A DNA stretch of 28,388 nt from a virus. Within the stretch, counting starts at the first letter, position 1. Each line of letters opens with the position of its first letter. The notes beneath the pieces are model-generated. The model worked only from the letters and a program-made list of their open reading frames with translations. It did no database searches and was not told where the DNA came from. The position numbers and the translations under genes were made by a program. Location: positions 1 through 28,388 of IMG/VR virus record IMGVR_UViG_3300033997_000163; one strand, given 5' to 3'. This document shows, piece by piece, positions 4,571 through 21,758 of the stretch.

Positions 4571-4924
4571 TTATCGGCGGGGTGTAGGTCGGTCAAGCAT
4601 AGCGAGCAACTCGGCCCACACTTTGGCGGGCATGACGGCGTACCAGTCGTCCACGTTCTCCGACCCGCGACGCTTCACAATGACTGCACCAGTCCAAGCG
4701 CGGGCGTTCGCCATCTCAGTTTCGAGCTCGCGGATGTAGCCCGGTAAATCTATTTTCTTCTCCGCCTTTATTTCGATACAGACGCCTGGTAGGCCGTCTA
4801 TGTCGCCACGGTCGTCGGTCCAACCGGCACGACTGCGTTCGGCGTTGATCCAACCGAACGTTCGCAGCCACTTGGCCACGAGCAACTCGGCCCGATTACC
4901 TTTGCGTTTGTTTGGATGAGCCAC
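4571..4924 (-). CDS. Holliday-junction resolvase-like PD-(D/E)XK nuclease
   Basis: A 117-residue protein with the layout of small archaeal-type Holliday junction resolvases: KRKGNRAE with Glu13 on the first helix, DDRGDIDG with Asp41, then the catalytic EIK with Glu51 and Lys53, followed by a strand VIVKRRG near residues 82-88. The role would be cutting branched DNA before packaging, with metal ions at the acidic triad. It starts at ATG inside the end of the WhiB gene (29-base overlap) and precedes the RecB-like exonuclease, so the two nucleases form a DNA-processing pair. Confidence 0.8.
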   Translation of the reverse strand: MAHPNKRKGNRAELLVAKWLRTFGWINAERSRAGWTDDRGDIDGLPGVCIEIKAEKKIDLPGYIRELETEMANARAWTGAVIVKRRGSENVDDWYAVMPAKVWAELLAMLDRPTPRR

Positions 4925-5204
4925 GGGCTCTCACTCTACGACGAGCCTCGCGCCGTCTCTCGGTCGTCGTCATCCCGCCCCAAATACCTATCTCCTCTGC
5001 GGCAATCGCATGCTCGAGGCAGTCGACGCGCACCGGGCACTTGTAGCAGTACGACTTCGCCTCGATGACGAGACGCCTGACGCCTTCCTCGAAGAACACG
5101 TCGCCCGAAACGCCGATGCAAGCGGCCTGTCGGTACCACGACGGGCGTTTCGGGACGAACGCGTTGTCTTCGTTGTTCCAGTTAGCGATTGGTTCTTGCG
5201 TCAC
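4896..5204 (-). CDS. whiB: WhiB-family iron-sulphur transcription regulator
   Basis: A 102-residue WhiB-like protein. The four cysteines that bind the [4Fe-4S] cluster are Cys29, Cys53, Cys56 and Cys62, in the usual C...CxxC-x5-C order, followed by the GIWGG turn (73-77) and a basic, DNA-contacting C-terminus (TERRREARRR). WhiB proteins work with the housekeeping sigma factor in Actinobacteria, and several actinophages carry one that alters host gene expression or blocks superinfection. The start is GTG 5204 with no strong ribosome site and a 23-base overlap with the membrane protein gene. It is the best host indicator in the window. Confidence 0.93.
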   Translation of the reverse strand: MTQEPIANWNNEDNAFVPKRPSWYRQAACIGVSGDVFFEEGVRRLVIEAKSYCYKCPVRVDCLEHAIAAEEIGIWGGMTTTERRREARRRVRARGSSKQTQR

Positions 5205-10483: not shown

Positions 10484-11734
10484 TTATCCTAGCCCAACCT
10501 CGACGTCGTCAAGTTGCGACGTGTCGAGAATGAAGGCGGTGAGGAGCTGTGCTTGGCCGAGGCCGAGGGTGACTTGGTGCAGACCGGGTGTGATTTGGTG
10601 GGCGATGCGTTCGATGAACACGTCTTGGGTGATAGAGGCGGGCGACCCGGTGGAGAAGGTCTTGCCGACTTCGATGACGTCGCCAATCTCGAAGGCGTCG
10701 ATGGCTTGGATTTGTGCCGGCGTCAGCCCGTTCATGACGAGCCCGATTTCCACGAAGCGCGAGACGGGATCTTTGTATTTGTCGACGAAGTTCTGGGCGA
10801 GCGTCGCGGCCTCGGTGGCGTCGGCGAGCGGCAGACTGTTGAGGCTGTAGTTGGTGACACCGTATTCGCTGATCGAGGTTGCGTCGGTGGCAGTGCCAAC
10901 GGCGTTGCCTTTCGTCGTGACGGTCACGGAGTTGAAGAGTGTCTCGGCACCGTAGAGCACGTCGAGCGATTGGTACGGGATGGCGGTGCCGCCGTCGGAG
11001 AAGGTGGCGATCGCGGTGGAGAAGGTGAAGTCGATGCGCGGCTGGAAGGTCGCGTTGCCGTTTTTGGCGATGAAGAATCGGCCGTCCTCGGATTCGGCGA
11101 CTTCGGTCAACGCGGCGGCGACGCTGTCGCCGTCGGCGTAGGCGAAGGTGCCGAGGGTTGCGACGCCGGTGGAAATGTTGCGGGTGGCGGTGGAATAGGC
11201 GACTTCTGGTCGGTCGAGGATGCGGTTGACGCGGGCGGAGGTGAGTTCTTGTGGCGGGTTGAACGCGAGCAGAGTGGTCTTGGCGAAGCTGGACATGTCG
11301 TCGACGCCGATGATGGTGCAGAGGCTGAGGTCGGGTTGGGCGTATTCGATGTCGAGGTCTTGGACGCGGCCGACGAAGAGCGGTTCGGTTCCGGCGGTAC
11401 CGGCGTAGACCTGCATGAAACGGCGTGGCGCGATGCCGAGGTCGCCTTGGTAGTACGGGGAGGCGGTGTTGGCTGGGTCGAAGGAGCGGCCTGATGCTCG
11501 GTCGTCGAGGACGATTTGGCAGACGCCGGGCTGGAAGTTGGATCGGAGTTGGTCGGTGCGTCCGCGGGTGATGCCGACGGAGAGGACGTATTCGGTGACG
11601 TCGACGAAGTCGGTGGAGCCGTCAAGTACGTCGGTTCCGTCAAGCGTGGACGAGTCGAGTGTGAACGCGTCTTGGATGAATCCTGCGTCGAGCAGAACCT
11701 TCAGGGTCTCACCCCACGGCATCACCTTCGCCAT
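10484..11734 (-). CDS. Minor tail protein (tail tip)
   Basis: A 416-residue minor tail protein, following the tape measure gene as expected for tail-tip components. It is rich in beta-type segments, with features like YVLSVGITRGRTDQLRSNF (48-66) and ASPYYQGDLGIAPRRFMQVY (90-109) that recur in phage baseplate-hub or distal tail proteins which orient other parts of the tip. The last 16 residues read FILDTSQLDDVEVGLG. A related stretch (FTLDSSTLDGTDVLDG) lies near the N-terminus, and a third copy opens the repeat protein near the capsid genes. Confidence 0.8.
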   Translation of the reverse strand: MAKVMPWGETLKVLLDAGFIQDAFTLDSSTLDGTDVLDGSTDFVDVTEYVLSVGITRGRTDQLRSNFQPGVCQIVLDDRASGRSFDPANTASPYYQGDLGIAPRRFMQVYAGTAGTEPLFVGRVQDLDIEYAQPDLSLCTIIGVDDMSSFAKTTLLAFNPPQELTSARVNRILDRPEVAYSTATRNISTGVATLGTFAYADGDSVAAALTEVAESEDGRFFIAKNGNATFQPRIDFTFSTAIATFSDGGTAIPYQSLDVLYGAETLFNSVTVTTKGNAVGTATDATSISEYGVTNYSLNSLPLADATEAATLAQNFVDKYKDPVSRFVEIGLVMNGLTPAQIQAIDAFEIGDVIEVGKTFSTGSPASITQDVFIERIAHQITPGLHQVTLGLGQAQLLTAFILDTSQLDDVEVGLG

Positions 11735-11735
11735 G

Positions 11736-13892
11736 TCAGGCCACGCGCATCAACGTGTCAAGCGGCCCCGCCACCGACGTGTACTGATCCAACACCTCGA
11801 TGATTTCCTTCCCGACCTGATACGCGTTCCCGCCGATACCCGCCGTCACATTCACCACGACCGAAGCCCCACCGGTTGCAGTCGCACCGCCGCCAGCGGT
11901 ACCCGTCGGTGTTGGCGTCGGCACACCGGGTAGCGGCGGAATGTTGAATTGTTTGCCTGCATCAGCCGCGGCGGCCTTCAAATCGCGATACGCCTGGGCA
12001 AGGTCTTTGATTGCTTTCTCTTCGTTGTAGATGGCCTCGTTGAGCCTGAAGGTTGCCTCTTCTTGTTTTTCTTTCGCGGCGTTGACGCTCTTCAACAAAG
12101 CGTCGTAGGTCGCGGAGCCCGGGATTGCGCCTTTGACGATTTCGTTCAGTTTTGCCTGTGCGTCGGACAAGCGTGTGGTGGATTCCAGTTGCGAATCGGT
12201 CGCATCAGCGACACGCAGTTTTGCTTCAGCCAAACGAATCTCAAGTTCGCGGATGCGTTGCGGTGTGCTTTCGGGGTCTTTGCGGGCCTCCGCCAATTCT
12301 TTTTCGGCGTCAGCGACCGCGAACACCGATTCTTCGACCGCATAGCCGGCACGTTCACGATCGCGCTGAGCCTTAGCCAAAGCCCGCTCGGCATCCTTGG
12401 CCTCTGCGGAATCGGACCCGTATCCCGTGACCGCACGATTGAACGCCTCTTGAGCCGCCAACAAATCAGTGTTCGCCTGATCCAAAGACTTTTGAGCCTG
12501 TAGACGATTGCGTTGAGCGTTGGTGACTGAACGCTCGGAGGCGGCCGTCTTGTCAAGCTGCTCCCTGTATTCCTTCAGTTTTTCGGCGGCAGTTTTTGTC
12601 GCCTTCCCTGCGGAATTGGTGACGCTGGTGAAATCGGTTCCGGATGCCGAACCTTTGATGAGGCTCGCTTCGAGGCGGCTGAGGCGGTCCGTCGTGACTA
12701 GAGCTGACCCCGAGACTTTGAGGAAGGCGGTGTCGGTCGCCAAAACGGCTCGACGCAACGCGTCAAATTTGCCTGGTAGACCGGCCGTGGTTTTGGCAAG
12801 ATTTTCTTCTGCGACATCCAATGCGATGACGACTGCCGAGGATTTGGCGAACGCCATGACGTTGCCGGTGAGAGCAGAGATTGCTGCGGCGACCAACCCG
12901 ATGTTCTGGACGAGGTTGATTGCGGAACCGATTGTTTCGAGGATTGCCAGCGTGACTTTCTCGAAGGTGTCGATTGCTTTGACTCCGAATTCGCCGAGCG
13001 AGGCGATGGCGATGATTGACGCCTGTTTGAAGCCTTTTTCACCGAGTTGGTCCGCAAAGACTTGTATGGCTGGTAGGACGCGCTCGTTGATGATCGAGAC
13101 GAACCGCAGGAAGTACGGAAGCAGCAGTTGGCCGAGAGTGGTCGAGATGTTTTCAAGTTGTGCCTTGAGGATTCGTTGCTGGTTGGCCAAACCGTCGGAC
13201 GTTCTGGCGAAGTCGCCTTGTGCGTCGGTCGTTTGCCTGAAAATGGCTTCGGTTGCGGCGAGCACTTTTTGTTGGGCGGTGAGTGCACCGTTGCCGCTGT
13301 AGATGCCCATTTCGAGGGCGATTGATTTGAGGGCCGCGTCGTTCAGGAGGACTCCGAACCTGCGGATTGGTTCGGATTCGCCGCGAAGCGCGGCACCGAT
13401 GGCTTGAATTGCCTCCTCGGGTCGGGTGTTGTTGAACGAGGCGAGGTCGGATGCCAGTGTGACGAACTTGGTCGAGAACTCCGCCAATGCGGTTCCTGAA
13501 AGTCCTGCCGATTTACCGAAGATGCCGAAGGTCGCCGCGGCGTCGATGGCTTGTTGTTTGGTTTGTCCTAGTGCGGTTGCCGCGTTGTTGGCGAAGGTCT
13601 GCACTTCTTGCGAGGACGCGCCGAAGATTTGGTTGCTCTTGGAGATGGTTTCGTTGAGGTCGCTGGCTCGTTGGATTGCGACGAACGCGGCGGCAGAGAA
13701 GGTTCCGACGGCTGCCGCTCCGACGGCGGCGATTTTGGCGAACGCGTCAAATCCGGCTCGCAGCCCTCCGAAGAGTTTGTCCGAGAACTCGTCTTGGAGG
13801 ATTCTGCCTTGTTTTTGTAGTTTTTTGAACGAGGCTATTGCGTCGTCGGAGTCGCCCAAAATTCGGACTAGAAATGTGCGCTCGCCAGCCAT
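11736..13892 (-). CDS. Tail tape measure protein
   Basis: The largest gene of the window, 718 residues. The product should extend inside the tail tube during assembly and set its length; the known rule of about 0.15 nm per residue would give roughly 105-110 nm. The N-terminal part (1-120) is an alpha-helical, alanine-rich start (AAVGAAAVGTFSAAAFVAIQ at 56-75) typical of PhageMin_Tail-like proteins. Hydrophobic helices follow at about 320-370 (IGSAINLVQNIGLVAAAISA), then a long coiled coil (about 440-650), and a C-terminal Pro/Gly/Thr-rich linker and short terminal domain. No peptidase motif is visible. Position between chaperone and minor tail genes is standard. Confidence 0.9.
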   Translation of the reverse strand: MAGERTFLVRILGDSDDAIASFKKLQKQGRILQDEFSDKLFGGLRAGFDAFAKIAAVGAAAVGTFSAAAFVAIQRASDLNETISKSNQIFGASSQEVQTFANNAATALGQTKQQAIDAAATFGIFGKSAGLSGTALAEFSTKFVTLASDLASFNNTRPEEAIQAIGAALRGESEPIRRFGVLLNDAALKSIALEMGIYSGNGALTAQQKVLAATEAIFRQTTDAQGDFARTSDGLANQQRILKAQLENISTTLGQLLLPYFLRFVSIINERVLPAIQVFADQLGEKGFKQASIIAIASLGEFGVKAIDTFEKVTLAILETIGSAINLVQNIGLVAAAISALTGNVMAFAKSSAVVIALDVAEENLAKTTAGLPGKFDALRRAVLATDTAFLKVSGSALVTTDRLSRLEASLIKGSASGTDFTSVTNSAGKATKTAAEKLKEYREQLDKTAASERSVTNAQRNRLQAQKSLDQANTDLLAAQEAFNRAVTGYGSDSAEAKDAERALAKAQRDRERAGYAVEESVFAVADAEKELAEARKDPESTPQRIRELEIRLAEAKLRVADATDSQLESTTRLSDAQAKLNEIVKGAIPGSATYDALLKSVNAAKEKQEEATFRLNEAIYNEEKAIKDLAQAYRDLKAAAADAGKQFNIPPLPGVPTPTPTGTAGGGATATGGASVVVNVTAGIGGNAYQVGKEIIEVLDQYTSVAGPLDTLMRVA

Positions 13893-13904
13893 GACACGGC
13901 GATT

Positions 13905-14615
13905 CTACTCCGAGTCGCGCACCGCCTTTTCCAGCCGACCCAGATCGTCGTAGATGAGCAGCAGTGCTTCTCGTTTGGTCATGCCTTCGTAGCGCGACAT
14001 GTTTTTGGGTCGCGTCCAGAAGTCTTCTCGCATCCATTCGAACGCTTCCCGTGGTTTGGTGACGCCGGTTCGCTCGACGGGTGCTTTGAAGATTCGCGCT
14101 GGTTGGGTGATGTCGTTGATTGTCGGGTCGACGAATCGGCCGCCGTGATACCGCACTTCGAACGGCGACCCAGCCGCGTGTTGTGGGAGGTAGAACATGC
14201 GTGCCGGGTCTTTGCAAGCTTGGTCGACTGGCAGACGCAGACGGGCGACGGTTTCCTGCCAGACGATGTGCCACCATTCGGCGGGCACTGGTTCGCTGAA
14301 CGGGATGACGACGTGCCAGTGGGGATCATCGTCACGATGGGACCATGTGGTGTACGCGCAGTATTCGAAACGGTCAAGGTTCGCCTGGTCGAATCCTTGT
14401 CCGTCGAGGTCGGCGACGAAGGCGTGGATGTGGGTGACGTTGGCGTTTCCGCGGGGTTTGCGGTGGCCGTAGGTGACGGGCGAGTACAGGTCGCCGTCTT
14501 GTTTTTGTTGCCGTTCTTTGTGGTGGTGCAAGAGGTCGACGAACTGCATCCAGTCGTGTGTGATGGTTTTCGGCCATCGGGCTTGCAGGTTGTGGAATTT
14601 GACTGCGGAGAACAG
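13905..14615 (-). CDS. Primase-fold (AEP-like) protein with CTG start
   Basis: A 236-residue protein resembling replication primases of the archaeo-eukaryotic fold (RepB/PrimPol-like). Motifs: FVADLDG with Asp69 and Asp71 (metal-binding DxD), SHRDDDPHWHVVIPF (92-106) as the second conserved strand, and LPVDQACKDPARMFYLP (128-144). The convincing reading begins at CTG 14615, six bases after a perfect AAGGAGG. The first ATG (14549) would drop 22 well-formed residues (FSAVKFHN, RWPKTITHDW). An in-frame stop lies just upstream, so CTG is the only start that uses the ribosome site. The location between HK97 gp10-like and tape measure genes is unusual for a replication protein. Confidence 0.75.
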   Translation of the reverse strand: MFSAVKFHNLQARWPKTITHDWMQFVDLLHHHKERQQKQDGDLYSPVTYGHRKPRGNANVTHIHAFVADLDGQGFDQANLDRFEYCAYTTWSHRDDDPHWHVVIPFSEPVPAEWWHIVWQETVARLRLPVDQACKDPARMFYLPQHAAGSPFEVRYHGGRFVDPTINDITQPARIFKAPVERTGVTKPREAFEWMREDFWTRPKNMSRYEGMTKREALLLIYDDLGRLEKAVRDSE

Positions 14616-14621
14616 GGCGGG

Positions 14622-14628
14622 CCTCCTT
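14622..14628 (-). promoter_or_regulatory. Ribosome binding site that decides the CTG start
   Basis: AAGGAGG, a full Shine-Dalgarno match, lies six bases before the CTG codon at 14615. No ATG, GTG or TTG is found at a proper distance in this frame. This supports non-standard initiation at CTG for the primase-fold gene. Confidence 0.7.
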
Positions 14629-14664
14629 GGTTGTCAGGCTACCGTATCGGCGGGTGTGACACGG

Positions 14665-15204
14665 TTATTTGAAAAGCTCTTGTTTCATGACGTTTCTGAT
14701 GGCCATGAGGTATTCGGTTGCGATGTTTTTCTTTTCTTTTCTGACCGTCGGCCAGAAGAAGTATCCCGACCTACCACGATGCCGAAGAAACTGGCTGGTT
14801 TCCTTGCGAGCACCACCACCGAATTCTGCACCGAAGAAGACGTCCCCACGAGTCACTTTCGTCTTGCGGTTGCGATTCGGGCGACTTTTGGACACAAAAC
14901 CCGAATTGTGTGCAAGTTTGATAGTCGGCAAACGGTCGCGTTGTGCCCGCATGCCCTTCATAACTTCTAGGGCTTGACGTGCCCTGGTGATCGAGGCGGC
15001 TTCTTTGATTGCTTCGTTGACTAGGAGTTGCGCCACCGCTTGACCGGCTTTTCGCATCTCCTTGTTGAAATTCGGTTCAATGCGTTGCAGGTCGTTGAGG
15101 ATGTCGGTCAGTCCTTCGATTGAAATGGCCGCGCCGATTGCTTTTTCGTTGCGTGCTCCGCCGGGAAGGCGTTCGCTGACACGAAAGGCCGAAACTAGAG
15201 CCAC
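14665..15204 (-). CDS. HK97 gp10-like tail/connector protein
   Basis: A 179-residue protein with the pattern of the HK97 gp10 family, which forms part of the head-tail or tail-completion structure: a helical first half (ILNDLQRIEPNFNKEMRKAG) and a C-terminal part with a basic segment (SKSRPNRNRKTKVTRG), then FGGGARKETSQFL and RSGYFFWPTVR (144-154), the diagnostic motif. It begins at GTG 15204, one base after the stop of the -1 frame chaperone product. In many phages this gene comes before the tail tube gene; here it follows the chaperone. Confidence 0.8.
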   Translation of the reverse strand: MALVSAFRVSERLPGGARNEKAIGAAISIEGLTDILNDLQRIEPNFNKEMRKAGQAVAQLLVNEAIKEAASITRARQALEVMKGMRAQRDRLPTIKLAHNSGFVSKSRPNRNRKTKVTRGDVFFGAEFGGGARKETSQFLRHRGRSGYFFWPTVRKEKKNIATEYLMAIRNVMKQELFK

Positions 15205-15205
15205 G

Positions 15206-15624
15206 TCATTCTCGGTACGGTGTCGGGTTCATTTTCACCATTTTCCATCTTAGGTATGCCTGCATGGTGAACAACATCCGCGGTGATTCTTGGAGCAGTT
15301 GTGACGGGGCTATGCCCGTTTCGCAGGACAAATACGCGATCAGCCAGTGGGCTGATTGCTCTCCAAAGGGACGATCCGGGCGTCTTCGCCACCGAGCTCC
15401 AGTTCTGAGACGGTCAGATTCCATTCGTCGAATCCGAGTGCGGTTTGTTTGTTTCGTTTCTCTGCGTGCCAGGCAATCCACGCAAGATCGGACAGGCGGA
15501 GTTCGGTGTCCATTTTTGCGACGGATTTGTTGTGCGCGTTCTCGAACGCGATGAAGTCGGCAAACTGAGCGACCACGAGCTTGCGTGTGCCTCCGTCGTA
15601 GACGACGGTCATGGGCAGTTTCAT
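15206..15624 (-). CDS. Tail assembly chaperone, long -1 frameshift product
   Basis: The longer, GT-type chaperone (139 residues expected). The first 87 codons are shared with the short form, then the ribosome slips back one base at CCCTTTG (15364-15370) and reads 52 codons in the -1 frame to a stop at 15206. The extension (GEQSAHWLIAYLSCETGIAP, then a basic, aromatic tail) is good coding sequence with no start codon of its own in the right place. In known siphophages this product binds the tape measure protein, which it helps to wrap with tail tube subunits. The stop falls one base from the next gene's GTG. Confidence 0.85.
15340..15624 (-). CDS. Tail assembly chaperone, short form
   Basis: The unshifted product, 94 residues, ending in EDARIVPLESNQPTG. 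It opens with MKLPMTVVYDGGTRKLVV, after a strong ribosome site (GGAGGTAACAA before ATG), and is helical in the second half with the Trp-rich segment SDLAWIAWHAEKRN (45-58). It corresponds to the G-type tail assembly chaperone and lies just downstream of the tail tube gene, where it is found in nearly all siphophages. It should be made in excess over the frameshifted form. Confidence 0.87.
   Translation of the reverse strand: MKLPMTVVYDGGTRKLVVAQFADFIAFENAHNKSVAKMDTELRLSDLAWIAWHAEKRNKQTALGFDEWNLTVSELELGGEDARIVPLESNQPTG
15364..15370 (-). promoter_or_regulatory. -1 programmed frameshift slippery heptamer CCCTTTG
   Basis: Read on the minus strand the heptamer is C CCT TTG, fitting X XXY YYZ with codons CCT (Pro) and TTG (Leu) in the zero frame, so both tRNAs can slip back to CCC and TTT. 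It lies seven codons before the zero-frame stop. The -1 frame is open for 52 codons and ends beside the next gene. I did not identify a clear downstream pseudoknot by eye. Confidence 0.85.
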
Positions 15625-15655
15625 TTGTTACCTCCGCAGGGTGAAGTTGATTGAA

Positions 15656-16063
15656 TCAGGCAGTGCCCTTGGTGATCGCGCCCGAAATCGGGAAGGTGAC
15701 GTCGGCGGTGGCGAGTTCGCCGACCGCGCCGTTGACCGGCGTCCACTCGGTGACGAGCACCGAGAAAGTGTACGACGGGTTCGTCGGCGACGGCGCAGCG
15801 GTGCCGTTCGGCTTGATGACGCAGGTGACTGCGGTCGAGCCGACGAGCGGGAAGAAGATGCCGTCAATCGCGTTGTAGTCGTTGTGAATCGAGAACGTCA
15901 CCGAGTTGTCAATGAGACCCGACACGCGGGTGATTGCCGACGAACCGAACGCGGTCGTCGCAACTTCAGCAGCGGTCGTCGAGAGCGACACGCTCGCCAC
16001 GTTCGCCGAGATGTCGGTGCCGTTGAACACGATGTTCGCGTCTTTGAGGACCAGCTTTGCCAT
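15656..16063 (-). CDS. Major tail tube protein
   Basis: A 135-residue, beta-rich protein that should form the stacked rings of the tail tube. It starts MAKLVLKDANIVFNGTDISA and shows alternating strands, including the SVTFSIHNDYNAIDGIFF segment (53-70) and YTFSVLVTEWTPV (97-109), as in short siphophage tail tube subunits. The ATG is preceded by AGGAG in a good position. Placement between the tail terminator and the chaperone is standard. At 135 residues it lacks the C-terminal Ig-like extension some actinophages have. Confidence 0.85.
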   Translation of the reverse strand: MAKLVLKDANIVFNGTDISANVASVSLSTTAAEVATTAFGSSAITRVSGLIDNSVTFSIHNDYNAIDGIFFPLVGSTAVTCVIKPNGTAAPSPTNPSYTFSVLVTEWTPVNGAVGELATADVTFPISGAITKGTA

Positions 16064-16065
16064 GA

Positions 16066-16239
16066 CTATTTGTCTCCTGCCTTATCGGCCTTCGAGGGTT
16101 TCTTGACTTCTTCTGCCACCGGCGAGAGAACGCCTGCTGCAATCAACAACTCTACATTGTCAATCCCGCTCCCGTCCACATGCCCGCCCGGCTGAACGCC
16201 AGTCACGGGAAATGGGCCGGAGACCAGGTATTTCGCCAT
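16066..16239 (-). CDS. Small protein before the tail tube gene, 57 aa
   Basis: A 57-residue frame starting at ATG 16239, three bases after the tail-terminator stop, and ending two bases before the tail tube ATG. It reads KYLVSGPFPVTGVQPGGHVD, then NVELLIAAGVLSPV and a lysine-rich tail. The pattern of a short beta-hairpin followed by a helix ending in A-G-x-L-x-P is seen in many small phage structural-region proteins. The tight fit between two structural genes supports it. Role unknown; a connector or assembly aid is possible. Confidence 0.7.
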   Translation of the reverse strand: MAKYLVSGPFPVTGVQPGGHVDGSGIDNVELLIAAGVLSPVAEEVKKPSKADKAGDK

Positions 16240-16242
16240 GTT

Positions 16243-16650
16243 CTAAGCGTACACGGTGACTTGAAAATCAACGCTGAGGTATGTGGTGTCGTTTGCGTCA
16301 AAATTCAGAATGTTTCTGGCTGACGTGCAGATGAGATCCTGCACTATTCCGCCGAGGGTTCTGTCTGCTTCGATTGCGGATCTCACCGATTGAGTCCCTG
16401 AATAGGAAAGGTAGCCGTCAAGTTTGTCTTGGGCGGCCCGTTCTGATTGGCGAGATACGACAACTTGTACCGTGAATTGATGGACGATGTTTCCGGCACC
16501 CATCGCTCCGTGATAGGTGACTTCTTCCAGTATTGGAAAACAAAAAGGCGGGTTGACTTGGTCTGGTTGGTAGTCGTAGACGCGCATCCCCGGTATGGTC
16601 GACAGGGCGGTTTTTAGGCCGTCTTTGATTTGATTTACTGTTGCGGTCAT
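16243..16650 (-). CDS. Tail terminator-like protein
   Basis: A 135-residue protein placed between the head-tail connector and tail tube genes, where the tail terminator is normally encoded. The N-terminal helix (VNQIKDGLKTALSTIPGMRV) is followed by a strand-rich body (QFTVQVVVSRQSERAAQDKL) and an end of VDFQVTVYA, similar in layout to the gpU/DUF3168-type terminators that cap the tail tube and join it to the head. It begins in an ATGA overlap with the connector gene. The assignment rests on order and layout rather than a search. Confidence 0.72.
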   Translation of the reverse strand: MTATVNQIKDGLKTALSTIPGMRVYDYQPDQVNPPFCFPILEEVTYHGAMGAGNIVHQFTVQVVVSRQSERAAQDKLDGYLSYSGTQSVRSAIEADRTLGGIVQDLICTSARNILNFDANDTTYLSVDFQVTVYA

Positions 16651-17273
16651 GCAAACATCCGCATGCGTCGGTATGGCTCGACGAGCTGAGCCATGTCAGG
16701 GTCGAGGAACCGAGAGACGCGGATTGCGCCGAGGTCGCCGAAGCCGGCGACGCCGAGCGGCGAGTCGTAACGCTTGAAGATGCGCGACGACTGGATGATG
16801 CACGCTTGCTTGATGGGTTCTGGTGTGGATGCCCAACCCCATTTGGCGGTCACTTGCACGAGGGCTTGTTCGCCGAAGTTCGCGTTGACGCTCGGAAAAA
16901 GGTAGTCGCCGACCGCACGAATCTTGCAGTAAGACCAGGTGAGTCCGTCGAGCACGCCGTTCAACGGTTCGAGTTGGTAGTCGCTCGTGGTCCAGGTGGT
17001 GTCAAACACTCCGTCGGCGAACGAGGAGGTCATAAGCACGAAGCTGTCGGTGGTGTAGAAGTCGTCGACGTCGCAGACGTATTCGTTGTTGGCTTGGAAG
17101 ATTCGGCTGCTTGCGGTGGATGCCGCCCAGAACTGGCGGTTGCAGTAGCCGTCGATGAGGCGCGATGCGGCCCCGATGCAGTTGTCAATCAGGACGTCGT
17201 CTGCGGTGTCGGCCGTGCCGATACGCATCGCGGCCTTGACCTCTGCGACGCTCGCGTATCCGTTGGTGGCCAT
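16647..17273 (-). CDS. Head-tail connector (gp6-like) protein
   Basis: A 208-residue connector of the HK97 gp6/gp15-like kind that docks under the portal after packaging. The N-terminal part is helical and opens with ATNGYASVAEVKAAM, then DDVLIDNCIGAASRLIDGYC (25-44), the conserved feature of the family, followed by strands, and a C-terminal helix pair with PIKQACIIQSSRIFKRYDSP (152-171). It is the first head-completion gene after the sugar cassette, which separates it from the capsid gene. Confidence 0.85.
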   Translation of the reverse strand: MATNGYASVAEVKAAMRIGTADTADDVLIDNCIGAASRLIDGYCNRQFWAASTASSRIFQANNEYVCDVDDFYTTDSFVLMTSSFADGVFDTTWTTSDYQLEPLNGVLDGLTWSYCKIRAVGDYLFPSVNANFGEQALVQVTAKWGWASTPEPIKQACIIQSSRIFKRYDSPLGVAGFGDLGAIRVSRFLDPDMAQLVEPYRRMRMFA

Positions 17274-17285
17274 GACGGGTCAATC

Positions 17286-17921
17286 CTACTCAACTCGTTC
17301 CCATTCGGAACCGACGAGGCGCAGTATCTCGCAACCGTAATCCGCACGCAAACGCTTGGCGACGATCGACAGTTGTCGTCGCGCCCCGTCGTATGACGGC
17401 GGCACACCGTAGTTGACGTACCCGGTGTACGCATCCTTGCCGCCGACCTGCCCCATGTCGACTCCGACGAGACGCATCTCCGCGCAACCCATGTACGCAG
17501 CGAGATGCATCGCGATCGCCGACGAGTTCCCGCCGCACACCAGCACGTCAGGGTCGTCGGGCCAATGGTGCTCCGGGTCCCATGCGGGTCGCTTCGCTCG
17601 GAACGTCAGGTTGTTATCCAGCGTCGGATGCGTCGGCCCGTTGTCTGGTTGCGTCAGGTCGTTGTCCGGTGTGACCATCAGGAACTCAGGATGCTGGTCG
17701 CACATGTCTTGCATGACTTGGTTGTGCCTGGAGTAGTTGCTGGCGATGAGGAAGTTCTTGATGCCGTAATAGAACGCCGACATGTTGATCGAGACGACAG
17801 TCTTCTCGTCGTAGAACTCGGGTGCCGTGGTCTCCAGCGACGGTCCCGAACCGACGACCCAGATGGTTTCGCCGCGGTGCAGGTTGCGGAGGTCGGTCAG
17901 TCTCGAAGGACGGGAGGCCAT
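17286..17921 (-). CDS. Maf/DUF115-like sugar-handling protein
   Basis: A 211-residue protein that looks like the DUF115/Maf (MptE-like) superfamily, whose members include flagellin glycosyltransferase factors and pyrophosphokinases. The N-terminal Rossmann-like strand and glycine turn IWVVGSGPSLE (20-30) and the later VLVCGGNSSAIAMHLAAYMG (residues 126-145) with RLVGVDMG (150-157) match the family. Some members move activated sugars or phosphates onto a target. It is the last gene of the sugar cassette and overlaps the one before by 25 bases. The exact substrate is unknown. Confidence 0.65.
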   Translation of the reverse strand: MASRPSRLTDLRNLHRGETIWVVGSGPSLETTAPEFYDEKTVVSINMSAFYYGIKNFLIASNYSRHNQVMQDMCDQHPEFLMVTPDNDLTQPDNGPTHPTLDNNLTFRAKRPAWDPEHHWPDDPDVLVCGGNSSAIAMHLAAYMGCAEMRLVGVDMGQVGGKDAYTGYVNYGVPPSYDGARRQLSIVAKRLRADYGCEILRLVGSEWERVE

Positions 17922-18565
17922 TCTTCACCCGGTATGACTCGACCCGTCTTCAACTGCTCGGCGAACCAGCGCACTTCATGTTCTGCCTGCGGGTCTGGCT
18001 TGGCAGTCATCGCATCGTCGTGACGTTGCCACGTCCAGCGAATCATCTTGTCGAACGTCGCCCGATAGCCGTTGGCTCGCAGCTCGCACCAGTGAACCCA
18101 ATCGACGTACTTGTGCGTGCGATACGGAATCTTGCGCCACACCGCCGTCCTGATGACCGCCAGACCAGGCATCCCGTTGTGCCCGAGGTCCAACAGTCGC
18201 TCATACTGATCGGGCGTTCCGTAGCACAAGCCACCTTCCCACCGCCCCGCCACGTTTACCGCATCACCGTCGAGCACGAGCCCGTCAAAGAAGTTCGGGT
18301 CCATCGTGTCGTCGACCGGCAGATGCGTCGCCCACTCCGACTCCGCTCGACGCACCGCGATGTTCGCGCACGGCCACACCCGCGAATCCCAATACTGCAC
18401 CACCGTCCACCAGCCCGGCACCTTCACGTCCGCGTTCGTCACCACGATGACCTCCTGCGGCTTCACGGTCAACGCCTCGACGCTGTCGACGAAACGAGAA
18501 CCGAACCGTTCCCAATAGCCGCGGTCGAACGGCGAGATGATTGCTACCGGCGACGTCGATACCAC
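17897..18565 (-). CDS. GT-A-like glycosyltransferase
   Basis: A 222-residue protein from GTG 18565, with an open frame further upstream to 18595 that I consider less likely. It starts with a strand and loop (AIISPFDRGYWERF), then a second strand EVIVVTNADV (residues 38-47), TVVQYWDSRVWPCANIAV, and DDTMDPNFFDGLVLDGDAVN (85-104), a likely acid-rich metal and nucleotide-sugar site. The fold resembles GT2-type enzymes, though the classic DxD is not exact. It overlaps the GT17-like gene by 22 bases. Sugar donor and target are unknown. Confidence 0.65.
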   Translation of the reverse strand: MVSTSPVAIISPFDRGYWERFGSRFVDSVEALTVKPQEVIVVTNADVKVPGWWTVVQYWDSRVWPCANIAVRRAESEWATHLPVDDTMDPNFFDGLVLDGDAVNVAGRWEGGLCYGTPDQYERLLDLGHNGMPGLAVIRTAVWRKIPYRTHKYVDWVHWCELRANGYRATFDKMIRWTWQRHDDAMTAKPDPQAEHEVRWFAEQLKTGRVIPGEEWPPVLRD

Positions 18566-19272
18566 GACTGCGGAGCCCTTCCCTCTTGCACCCACTCAGG
18601 CATGTCGCGATCCATGTCGCACTCCACCAGAGGCTCGCCACGAATCGAGCGGCCGATGCGATAGTTCTCTTCCATAAACGCCTCGGGGTCTTCGACCATC
18701 AGCTCCTGGTGGCAGAACTCGCGCATTTTGTTCGCCGCCCATTCAGGGCCGCCCATCCACGACAGATGCCAACCCGAACGCAACGTCGGCAACCCGTAGC
18801 GGTTCGAGCGAATCTGCTGCGCCGTGCCCGGCCGCTTGCCCCACGGACCGCCGACTGCCGTGTACTCGTCCGACAGACGCCAATACACCGACATCACCGT
18901 CCGCTTCATCACCCACGCATACCAGCCGAACTGCAACGCCTCAATGTCGCGAGGGTTCCAGATTTCGTCGCAGTCGCACACCGTCACGATGTCCTCATCC
19001 GCCGGGTCATACCGGGCGGCCAGAACGAACAGTCGGTTGCGTTGTGCCCACTCCGCAGCCCACCCAGTCTCCCCGTCATAGATGAACGGGTGATAGTCGA
19101 CTTTCGGATGCTCGTAATGCCGGGGTTGCAACCCGGTCTTCTTCGGCTTGCCCATGAACGTCTTGGTGCCTTCGAGGACGATGAACTTGTCGACCACGTC
19201 CTCGAGATGCGAGATGCGGACATCGAGCATGTCCGCTTCTTGGTTGTAGAGAATCAGGTCAAATACGCGCAT
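18544..19272 (-). CDS. GT17-like N-acetylglucosaminyltransferase
   Basis: A 242-residue protein closely fitting glycosyltransferase family 17: RVFDLILYNQEADMLDVRI (2-20), FIVLEGTKTFMGKPK (30-44) and the catalytic VCDCDEIWNP with Asp100, Asp102 and Glu103. Family 17 enzymes add N-acetylglucosamine in a beta-1,4 link, in eukaryotes as the bisecting residue; bacterial and phage members have unknown acceptors. It overlaps the methyltransferase gene by 14 bases. The C-terminal end is short and basic. It should use a UDP-sugar and act in the cytoplasm. Confidence 0.85.
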   Translation of the reverse strand: MRVFDLILYNQEADMLDVRISHLEDVVDKFIVLEGTKTFMGKPKKTGLQPRHYEHPKVDYHPFIYDGETGWAAEWAQRNRLFVLAARYDPADEDIVTVCDCDEIWNPRDIEALQFGWYAWVMKRTVMSVYWRLSDEYTAVGGPWGKRPGTAQQIRSNRYGLPTLRSGWHLSWMGGPEWAANKMREFCHQELMVEDPEAFMEENYRIGRSIRGEPLVECDMDRDMPEWVQEGRAPQSWYRRRR

Positions 19273-19834
19273 TGCTCTTCGCCAACAGGATCAGTCGCAG
19301 GTCGTTGAGCACGACCTTTGTTTCGACGTGGAAGTGCTTGCGTATCTCGGCTTCGAGTTCTTCGATGCTTGGGACGTACCAGTGGGTCGGTTGCGGAATC
19401 CACTCGTTGACCAGAATCCACTTCCCGTTCTTCGCGCAAATCTCCAGCAGGTCGCGCCAGTTTTTCTGCAAGACCAGCACTTGGCTGCAGACGATCAGGT
19501 CGTAGTCGCCCGAGGTTGCGGCCTCGAGCACGTCGCCCTGGCGGAAGTCGACGTCAGGGTAGAACGCCTTTGCTTTGTCGATTGCAGACTTGGCGATGTC
19601 GTAGGCGACGACCTTGCGACCCGGTATCGCCCAGAGGTGCGTCATCGCACCTTTGCCGCAGCCGATGTCGAGGATGCTCGGGAACAGATGCGTGCTGAGC
19701 AGCAGGTGCACGAGCCGTGTGGAGAAGTGCCGCTGGTCGGATTGGAACCATGCGTCGTATTGTTCCCCGTCTTCGTTCGAGTAGACCGCCTCGAAGTCTC
19801 CGGGTGGTGTCGTGTATTTGTGGTACTGGCCCAT
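19259..19834 (-). CDS. SAM-dependent methyltransferase
   Basis: A 191-residue class I methyltransferase with the SAM-binding motif ILDIGCGKGA (54-63), the acidic end of strand two in VVAYDI (Asp79) and the later strand YDLIVCSQVL. The start at ATG 19834 sits in a TGATG overlap with the GT2 gene and has GGTGG upstream; an alternative GTG nine bases earlier is weaker. Such enzymes in sugar clusters usually methylate a hydroxyl of a sugar, which can cap a glycan. It lies inside the cassette between two transferases, so methylation of a transferred sugar is the likely role. Confidence 0.82.
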   Translation of the reverse strand: MGQYHKYTTPPGDFEAVYSNEDGEQYDAWFQSDQRHFSTRLVHLLLSTHLFPSILDIGCGKGAMTHLWAIPGRKVVAYDIAKSAIDKAKAFYPDVDFRQGDVLEAATSGDYDLIVCSQVLVLQKNWRDLLEICAKNGKWILVNEWIPQPTHWYVPSIEELEAEIRKHFHVETKVVLNDLRLILLAKSNARI

Positions 19835-20481
19835 CAGTCCCACCCTAAATCCAGTCTGCGTTGCAGGTCCCAGTCGAGGTCATGGTCGACGTTCATCCGT
19901 TGCTGGAAGAGCTCATGGTTCGCGGCGAACGTGATCGAGTTCAGTTGCTTGAATCGGTCGCTGGAGGCGAGCGTGCTGGAGTTGCGGTGGTAGATCGCGA
20001 CGGTGGAGCGGACGATGTCGCAGCCTTTGCGTTGCACTCGAATCTCGTAGTCGTTGTCCTCGAAGTAAGCCGGGTGGAACCCTTCGTGGAACAAGCCGAC
20101 TTTCTTCACGACCTCCGAGCCGAGCCAGAAGCACGACCACGGCGGCTTGCCACCGAGCACCAGATTCGACGGCGAGCACGACGCGAAGAAGTCGGCGACG
20201 CCGTTCTCCCCGAACGTGATGTCGTGATTGACCACCATCCAACCGAGAGACTTTGGTGTCGCTTTGATACCAAGATTCCACGAACCCGCCACGCCCTGAT
20301 TCGCGGGCATCCGCAGATGCCATACCCGCTCCGCCCAATCCTCACGCGGCGTCCAATCGCACGGACCGTTGTCGATGATGACCATGTCGCGCACCCGGCC
20401 GACGAACGACGTCATCATCTGGTCGACACGGAAGTGCTCGGTGAGCACCGGCACGATCAGGCTTGGGACGATCGGCACCAT
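19834..20481 (-). CDS. GT2-type glycosyltransferase
   Basis: A 215-residue GT-A glycosyltransferase, start chosen at ATG 20481 (the frame runs to 20511, but the extra ten residues are unconvincing). Typical family features: an opening SLIVPVLTEHFRVDQMMTSF (7-26), NQGVAGSWNLG (61-71), VVNHDITF with the NHD in place of DxD (residues 85-87), GFHPAYFEDNDYEIRVQRKG with Glu141 and Asp142, the general base region. The donor is probably a nucleotide sugar bound through a metal at the NHD motif. It overlaps the GT4-type gene by 25 bases. Confidence 0.82.
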   Translation of the reverse strand: MVPIVPSLIVPVLTEHFRVDQMMTSFVGRVRDMVIIDNGPCDWTPREDWAERVWHLRMPANQGVAGSWNLGIKATPKSLGWMVVNHDITFGENGVADFFASCSPSNLVLGGKPPWSCFWLGSEVVKKVGLFHEGFHPAYFEDNDYEIRVQRKGCDIVRSTVAIYHRNSSTLASSDRFKQLNSITFAANHELFQQRMNVDHDLDWDLQRRLDLGWD

Positions 20482-21758
20482 GCGGCGAGTTCTTTCATGA
20501 CCGGCTTCCAATGCGTCTCGAACACGAAGTCTGCTTCATACTGCTTGGCGAACTCAACGCCCTTGGTGGATTTCTGTCCGCGACGCTGGTACGCCTCCTC
20601 GAGCGCATTGACCATCGCTGGGACCGACGGAGTCAAGAACCACGACTTCTGGGCCGGATCCCAGAACGGTTGCCCGTCCACGACCCAGCCGTCTCCGCAG
20701 AGTTCGGGCTGGGCGGTGAAGTTGGAGACGATGACCGGGGTGCCGCAGGCTTGGGCTTCGACGACGGGGATGCCGAACCCTTCGCCCATGCTGGCTGCCA
20801 GGAGCACGTCAGACGCGCTGTAGAGGGCCGCCATTGCGTGCTGGGGTATGCCTTGGCGGTAAAGGTACGGGTCGGTGTATTTGACGCGTTCTGGCGCAAT
20901 ACCGCACGCCTGGGCGAGGGTCTTGAGGTCGATGCCTCCCATGGCCCCGCTCTCCTCGGAGTGCATGTAGAGCACCGCGTCGGGGTGCCGTTGGGCGAAG
21001 ATGCCGAACGCCATGAAACTTTCGGCGAACGCCTTGCGCGGCGGGTGGGCTCCTTTGTTGGCGGCCGTCATCATGACTACGAACTTGGCGGCCTCGAACC
21101 CCATGATGTCCCGCCCGGTGATTGACTTGCCCGTCGGGTCCTTGACGACTGGTGTCGGCTTGAACACCGATTCGATGCCGTGCGGAACGTAGAGGCTGCG
21201 GATGTTCTGCTGCTCGAGCATCTTCTGTCCGAACTTGCTCATCGCAATCGGCATCACGTTCGGCCTCGCACACCACGCCGCCACGTCGGGCGGGCACGGC
21301 GAATGGTCCACCGGCACCCATGAAGCGATGTTCGGAACCTTCTCCAGATTCGGGGCCTTCAACACCCACACGTCAAAGAGCGTCATCAAAAGTTTCGGCA
21401 GTTTCGTCGCTTGAGTCCACTCCATCCAGTGGGCGACGATGATGTCGTCAGAGTACGGGTTCAGTCCCCGCGGGTAGATCTTGATTCCGTTCCACGTCGA
21501 CGTCGAGCCTTCGAGCCCGTAGATTGCGTGGATCGCGACTTCGTGCCCTTCTTTGACGAGCCGCTTGACCGCTTGCTCGGTTTGCTGACCGTAGCCCGTT
21601 CCCGCCCACGGGGCGTTCGAGAACCAGAGGGCTCGGACTGCGTCCGCGGATCGACGACTGACTCCTCTGGCAAGTGCGCCGCGCCCCGCTGCAAGAGCAG
21701 GATCGCCGTCGGCTCCGGCAGTTCCACCGGCACGCCCTTGATGATGACCTTCATTCAC
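20457..21758 (-). CDS. GT4-type glycosyltransferase with doubtful N-terminus
   Basis: A 433-residue frame encoding a GT-B glycosyltransferase. The body is clear: RALWFSNAPWAGTGYGQQ, about 42-59, the glycine-rich opening of the fold, and GEGFGIPVVEAQACGTPVI with Glu326 and Glu334 (E-x7-E) for the donor sugar. The first 40 residues (from GTG 21758) have the Gly/Ala/Arg look of a shadow frame, and there is no ATG, GTG or TTG in frame before the domain. GTG 21758 is five bases after AGGAGG. The overlapping small frame in the +4 base position reads better for the first 35 codons. See the finding on this start. Confidence 0.8.
   Translation of the reverse strand: MNEGHHQGRAGGTAGADGDPALAAGRGALARGVSRRSADAVRALWFSNAPWAGTGYGQQTEQAVKRLVKEGHEVAIHAIYGLEGSTSTWNGIKIYPRGLNPYSDDIIVAHWMEWTQATKLPKLLMTLFDVWVLKAPNLEKVPNIASWVPVDHSPCPPDVAAWCARPNVMPIAMSKFGQKMLEQQNIRSLYVPHGIESVFKPTPVVKDPTGKSITGRDIMGFEAAKFVVMMTAANKGAHPPRKAFAESFMAFGIFAQRHPDAVLYMHSEESGAMGGIDLKTLAQACGIAPERVKYTDPYLYRQGIPQHAMAALYSASDVLLAASMGEGFGIPVVEAQACGTPVIVSNFTAQPELCGDGWVVDGQPFWDPAQKSWFLTPSVPAMVNALEEAYQRRGQKSTKGVEFAKQYEADFVFETHWKPVMKELAAWCRSSQA
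21461..21754 (-). CDS. Small protein frame overlapping the GT4 start
   Basis: A 97-residue frame whose first 38 residues look real (KVIIKGVPVELPEPTAILLL, then QRGAAHLPEESVVDP), like small proteins found after the capsid gene in other phages. The remainder (from about 42) is a Ser/Arg/Lys-rich shadow of the GT4 gene. AGGAGG lies nine bases before the ATG. Either a true small gene overlaps GT4, or the N-terminal part is fused to GT4 by a frameshift. Coding signal changes frame at about 21640. Confidence 0.5.
   Translation of the reverse strand: MKVIIKGVPVELPEPTAILLLQRGAAHLPEESVVDPRTQSEPSGSRTPRGRERATVSKPSKRSSGSSKKGTKSRSTQSTGSKARRRRGTESRSTRGD

Follow-up and report, generated by a model that had tools for sequence, protein, structure and literature searches.

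Descriptions of archaeo-eukaryotic primases (AEPs) in phages present them as replication proteins that often carry additional domains, for instance a helicase. In a 28,388-base IMG/VR virus record (here called the window), an AEP/RepB-like primase had nevertheless been predicted between a gp10-like gene and the tape measure gene, which raised the question of whether it is a displaced replication gene or whether the fold has a structural or early-injection role in this position. The placement itself was borne out by the open reading frame and by profile matches of the neighboring genes. The relevant features, all on the minus strand, are the following.

13905 to 14615, minus strand: tail-module AEP gene, 236 aa, with a CTG start at 14615 and the stop at 13905 included
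14622 to 14627, minus strand: Shine-Dalgarno-like AGGAGG, 6 nt ahead of the CTG start
14665 to 15204, minus strand: gp10-like/tail completion-Neck1 protein, upstream neighbor of the AEP gene, conserved in relatives
11736 to 13892, minus strand: tape measure protein (phrog_7025), downstream neighbor of the AEP gene
15340 to 15624, minus strand: tail assembly chaperone-like gene (G part, by position), which covaries with the AEP gene
15656 to 16063, minus strand: major tail protein (phrog_4574), on the upstream side of the exchanged cassette

The gp10-like/tail completion neighbor matched phrog_27 (1.7e-4) and phrog_5 (6.4e-4), and the tape measure gene matched phrog_7025 at 2.8e-20. The predicted span of 13893 to 14664 proved to be the gap between the two neighboring genes, within which only 13905 to 14615 is coding. 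In the window, the tape measure start lies 12 nt past the AEP stop (usually 15 to 17 nt in relatives), and an in-frame stop is found just 5′ of the AEP gene start. In place of ATG, CTG is the probable start codon and has a strong AGGAGG ahead of it. Homologous genes from 61 distinct relatives begin with ATG (57), GTG (3), or CTG (1); a CTG start is found in L001 (position 2797), as at window positions 14613 to 14615, and L001 is 99% identical to the window. AGGAGG or GGAGG precedes the start in most relatives. Counted from the CTG, the numbering of Asp69 and Asp71 in the original prediction is correct. No sigma-70-like promoter was seen in positions 13000 to 17300, although such scans say little. 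Farther upstream, in the interval that separates gp10 from the major tail protein gene, the frames at 15340 to 15624 and 15206 to 15481 overlap (window 15206 to 15624) and resemble the G and GT frames of a tail chaperone joined by programmed frameshifting.

To what family does the protein belong? In single-sequence searches, it gave partial-domain matches to phrog_9765 (DNA primase; E=1.5e-12) and phrog_256 (DNA helicase; 2e-7), and these profiles were matched by 72/72 and 67/72 members of the tail-AEP family, respectively. The best Pfam match to the window protein reached only E=0.23 (REP_ORF2-G2P), and a Pfam search with the 72 members recovered no family at E≤0.01, PF09250 included. NCBIfam and PADLOC contained no family for the protein, and a sequence search of the PDB found no relative. 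A shallow alignment of close relatives gave an AlphaFold2 model with a pLDDT of 44; an alignment of 72 sequences extending to about 35% identity, two remote ones among them, raised the mean pLDDT to 85.8, with about 95 in the core (model m72916c4fcbcb). The structure prediction that had been proposed as a check yielded the RRM-like catalytic fold of AEPs, whose nearest solved counterpart was the AEP domain of the cyanophage S-2L PrimPol (6zp9_A; Foldseek E=1.9e-5; Z 9.0 over 140 residues at 3.5 Å). Lower-ranked matches included other AEPs (CAPP, PriS, and LigD-Pol), the uncharacterized HP0184 was also high in the list (Z 7.1), and the RepB and circovirus Rep folds came further down, at a Z of about 3. 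In the viral model library (BFVD), the matches were phage primases/helicases and one uncharacterized full-length relative, A0A6J5S580.

The model divides the protein into an AEP core (residues 1 to 165), a variable, low-confidence linker (about 168 to 190), and a conserved C-terminal appendage (about 195 to 236), in which W200, G211, and P203 are retained in 106, 105, and 103 of 106 proteins, respectively. When the appendage was sought in the six frames of the window and in 18 sequences from relatives, AEP genes alone matched. No helicase or ATPase domain is fused to the 236-aa protein, which has only this appendage of about 40 residues. By its modeled fold and its motifs I and III, the tail-module protein is a member of the AEP superfamily. 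The phrog_9765 match, the modeled fold, the invariant active-site residues, and the dN/dS values (below) speak against a chance finding. Of the label AEP/RepB-like, the first half is thus upheld by the modeled fold, and the second half found no support, as there was no match to RepB, PF09250, or any other Pfam family.

The predicted active site maps to the following codons.

14403 to 14411, minus strand: motif I, Asp69-Leu-Asp71 (DxD), conserved in 106/106
14313 to 14321, minus strand: motif II, His99-Trp-His101 (HxH), with H101 opposite the active-site residue H118 of S-2L PrimPol in the alignment
14223 to 14225, minus strand: motif III, Asp131, which aligns with S-2L D146
14199 to 14213, minus strand: Lys135-Asp136-Pro-Ala-Arg139, in which K135, D136, and R139 are invariant

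Residues D69, D71, H99, H101, D131, K135, D136, and R139 are invariant across 106 distinct proteins with identities down to 35%, and H93 is altered once; loss of the Asp69/Asp71 pair, which would have counted against the prediction, was seen in none of them. Motif I (hhhDhD/E) appears as FVADLDG or LVVDMDG, and D131 provides motif III (h-Asp/Glu). Motif II is defined in AEPs as small-x-His and varies among AEP families (PMC5862659). Here it reads H99-W/Y/F-H101, with an invariant His at the "small" position, so its sequence suggests that the chemistry could differ from that of the textbook site. In S-2L PrimPol, residues H118 and D146 are reported to be conserved and functional in AEPs (PMC8065100). 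A profile alignment placed H101 on H118 and D131 on D146; this alignment is weak alone (probability 8.5, E=0.004) and agrees with the fold match and the motif spacing. S-2L R157 aligns with Tyr142 and has no identical counterpart in the tail AEP, for which the invariant R139 is a candidate. The dN/dS of the AEP gene (0.13 to 0.16) is within the range of its structural neighbors, indicating purifying selection.

The two histidines of motif II could also be read as an HUH motif, in which case H99-W-H101 would mark a Rep-like nuclease of the rolling-circle type. The invariance of HxH in 106/106 proteins, the weak REP_ORF2-G2P match, and the presence of RepB and circovirus Rep in the fold list are all in keeping with such an enzyme. 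The helix that follows the HxH strand (residues 112 to 126), however, lacks a conserved Tyr, and for this reason we rejected the assignment. The AEP fold is also far ahead in the fold comparison (Z 9.0 versus about 3), the AEP metal ligands are present as the invariant DxD and D131, and at the HxH site [RF]xR is found in related primases. We therefore regard an HUH-type endonuclease as very improbable.

The tail AEP shares with the AEP domain of S-2L PrimPol (PDB 6zp9; PMC8065100) the fold, the motif I acids, the motif II His, and the motif III Asp. The two differ in that they are only about 16% identical and the tail AEP has HxH at motif II; S-2L PrimPol has additional PriCT-2 and C-terminal domains (PMC8065100), whereas the tail AEP is a stand-alone protein, and the S-2L gene (S2L_32) lies outside the tail genes, whereas the tail AEP lies inside the tail cassette. 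The closest sequence relatives of the core are the phrog_9765/AEP proteins of the Caulobacter phiCbK group, Clostridioides phiCDKH02, phage C48C1, and L015, in which parts of the T.SH and D..aTKDPaR.FYlP blocks of the tail AEP recur. These proteins are mostly larger (about 500 to 1200 aa; 315 aa in C48C1) and carry extra domains, and in those that were aligned motif II is [RF]xR, in contrast to the HxH of the tail family. UniProt A0A6J5S580, from an uncultured Caudovirales phage, is 38% identical over its full length (BFVD) and has no function assigned there; judging from this similarity, it is probably a database member of the tail-AEP family. A related AEP domain was also observed in a 627-aa protein of the Vibrio campbellii plasmid pIFL1_1 (L201 2902 to 4785), whose gene is separated by about 1.2 kb from a TraF gene of conjugal transfer.

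Whether the position of the gene is an accident of this one genome was addressed by synteny. A scan with the AEP alignment found 448 relatives. The 80 best were retained, and those examined (49 to 99% identity) share the gene order chaperone, gp10, AEP, and tape measure. So that the sample would not be biased toward the AEP gene itself, we seeded a second scan with the gp6 connector. Among the best 80 gp6 matches, which sample the same broad clade and include a few contigs already in the AEP scan, 53 loci spanned gp10 to the tape measure gene, and 52 of these 53 had an AEP in the same slot, with identities down to 36%. The synteny comparison thus confirms that the slot is kept. Within the annotated phage collection, no match covered at least 80% of the tail-AEP protein; scans of genome contigs revealed no host or prophage copy of the gene, and the open-license papers searched contained no report of an AEP within a tail module. 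In nine loci (L033, L055, L068, L070, L071, L078, L079, L083, and L086), about 400 extra bases lie between gp10 and AEP and carry small ORFs (about 60 to 72 aa) of several unrelated types, a possible insertion hot spot.

An otherwise close relative, L127, has its gp10 and tape measure genes about 40 nt apart (10560 to 10640) with nothing between them, and no AEP gene is present elsewhere within its 25.6 kb. On at least one occasion, the AEP gene has therefore been dispensable. Among cultured phages, the nearest relative found was Pontimonas phage phiPsal1 (MCP, 48%; portal, 43.5%), in which the gene just ahead of the tape measure gene is gp017 (L103 11169 to 11822, 217 aa). The gp017 protein had no detectable relationship to either AEP or gp10.

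The AEP gene covaries with part of the tail module. Across 62 distinct loci, the pairwise identity of AEP was correlated with that of gp10 (Spearman, 0.78), the chaperone (0.72), the tape measure (0.47), and the tail tube (0.32). The L001/L117 pair has near-identical flanks (tail tube, 0.98; gene past the tape measure, 0.91) around diverged chaperone (0.54), gp10 (0.51), AEP (0.37), and tape measure (0.17) genes. These correlations, together with pairs of the L001/L117 type, indicate that the AEP gene travels with the tail-assembly cassette; the tape measure gene is frequently replaced even between loci with similar AEP genes. Physical linkage alone could explain the covariation with gp10.

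Coinheritance with gp10 and the chaperone, as well as a gene position flanked by neck and tape measure genes, would also fit a structural or assembly protein that reuses the AEP domain without catalysis. A scaffold, however, would not need the active-site residues that are invariant in 106/106 proteins, and L127 has gp10 and a tape measure without the AEP. Because L127 lost the gene cleanly, a required tail part is unlikely, and the purely structural role that had been put forward as one option is disfavored by this loss and by the intact active site. We consider such a role unlikely overall.

Alternatively, an ordinary phage primase may have moved into the tail module, where it would work with a host or phage helicase. 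The AEP fold with its intact active site is compatible with this idea, as is the fact that the closest sequence relatives are replication primases/helicases (phrog_9765 and phrog_256). However, a separate Prim-Pol with a PF09250 match was found in 7/15 records tested. In G001 and G002, this protein is 609 to 610 aa long, includes an AAA_25 helicase part, and is encoded in the replication module; the G001 protein (G001:364-2193) scores 146.8 bits against PF09250. It thus belongs to the AEP superfamily and occurs in the same genomes as the tail AEP, but it is helicase-fused and replication-associated, whereas the tail AEPs have no PF09250 match. Contig reach was compared for G001, G002, G004, G003, and the window only. 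In G001, G002, and G004, the Prim-Pol lies 1.0 to 2.2 kb past the homolog of window gene 1145 to 1387; beyond this gene or its homolog, the window extends 1.1 kb and G003 extends 0.6 kb. Its absence from the window and G003 is expected from the truncation of both. From its relatives, we infer that the window's own phage encodes such a Prim-Pol in a replication module beyond the window end. In at least seven relatives, the tail gene is by sequence a second AEP, of a different subfamily. Its slot is, moreover, fixed across proteins that are only 35% identical, so any displacement was not recent, and the gene was lost in L127. With the slot kept in 52/53 loci and another Prim-Pol-helicase in relatives, the displaced replication gene of the original prediction is disfavored, and we judge it quite improbable.

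The reading that we prefer, and hold with moderate confidence, is that the protein is a catalytically intact, stand-alone AEP-type nucleotidyltransferase, a predicted second primase-polymerase beside the Prim-Pol-helicase of the relatives. The AEP would be expressed together with the tail proteins and would bind a (d)NTP and two metals via D69, D71, and D131 with H101. It may then synthesize primers on phage DNA or close gaps there, either at a late stage of infection or during packaging or entry. The conserved C-terminal appendage that follows the variable linker may tether it to a binding partner, for which a virion protein and DNA are candidates. The site of action would be either the producing cell or, after carriage with the genome, the next host.

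Carriage with the genome would be a stronger form of this second-primase reading, and an attractive one: the AEP would be incorporated during tail or neck assembly, ejected with the genome, and prime the first synthesis in the new host. The slot fixed between two virion genes, the close spacing of the AEP stop and tape measure start, the conserved appendage past a variable linker, and the different Prim-Pol available to relatives for ordinary replication are all consistent with delivery in the virion. As precedent, the transfer of primases along with DNA has been described, and phage proteins whose genes lie close to the late genes are often packaged (PMC5512222). A conceptual parallel comes from two primases of conjugation, RP4 TraC1 and R64 SogL, which travel with plasmid DNA (PMC5512222); they are, however, of the Toprim (DnaG) fold and act in plasmid conjugation, and their delivery has been shown, whereas that of the tail AEP is a proposal. 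Against delivery, glycosyltransferases and a methyltransferase (17286 to 21758), which are not known virion parts, are also encoded among the structural genes, and the tape measure is often swapped while the AEP stays similar. Because enzyme genes also sit among structural genes, little can be concluded from gene position about incorporation into the virion. We therefore offer delivery as a tentative possibility. The same caution applies to the broader proposal that a tailed phage lineage packages a tail-operon AEP with an HxH variant site whose priming or gap filling precedes phage gene expression, which we think may be true but would not presume.

If the AEP is carried in the virion, a primase would be delivered with phage DNA, as a phage counterpart of the conjugative primases. 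If it is not, the second primase would probably be late acting, with packaging-linked repair, end filling, and counterdefense as candidate purposes. In both cases, the sequences delimit a precise and testable family whose active site is a variant one. Within the AEP superfamily, this family combines an unusual motif II with stand-alone architecture and a tail-operon context that is fixed. Across aquatic phages that form a large and divergent group, several of them with another Prim-Pol as well, the solo protein has been retained in the tail-assembly cassette with its active site intact.

The sequence pattern of the gene at window positions 4896 to 5204 is that of a WhiB-like protein. Because of this protein and of phiPsal1 as the nearest cultured relative, an actinobacterial host is indicated, and the uncultured aquatic phages with a tail AEP are probably actinophages. 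The glycosyltransferase and methyltransferase genes at 17286 to 21758 lie, with a sialyltransferase-like gene, between the major capsid and gp6 connector genes; the content of this cassette varies among relatives and is partly retained in phiPsal1.
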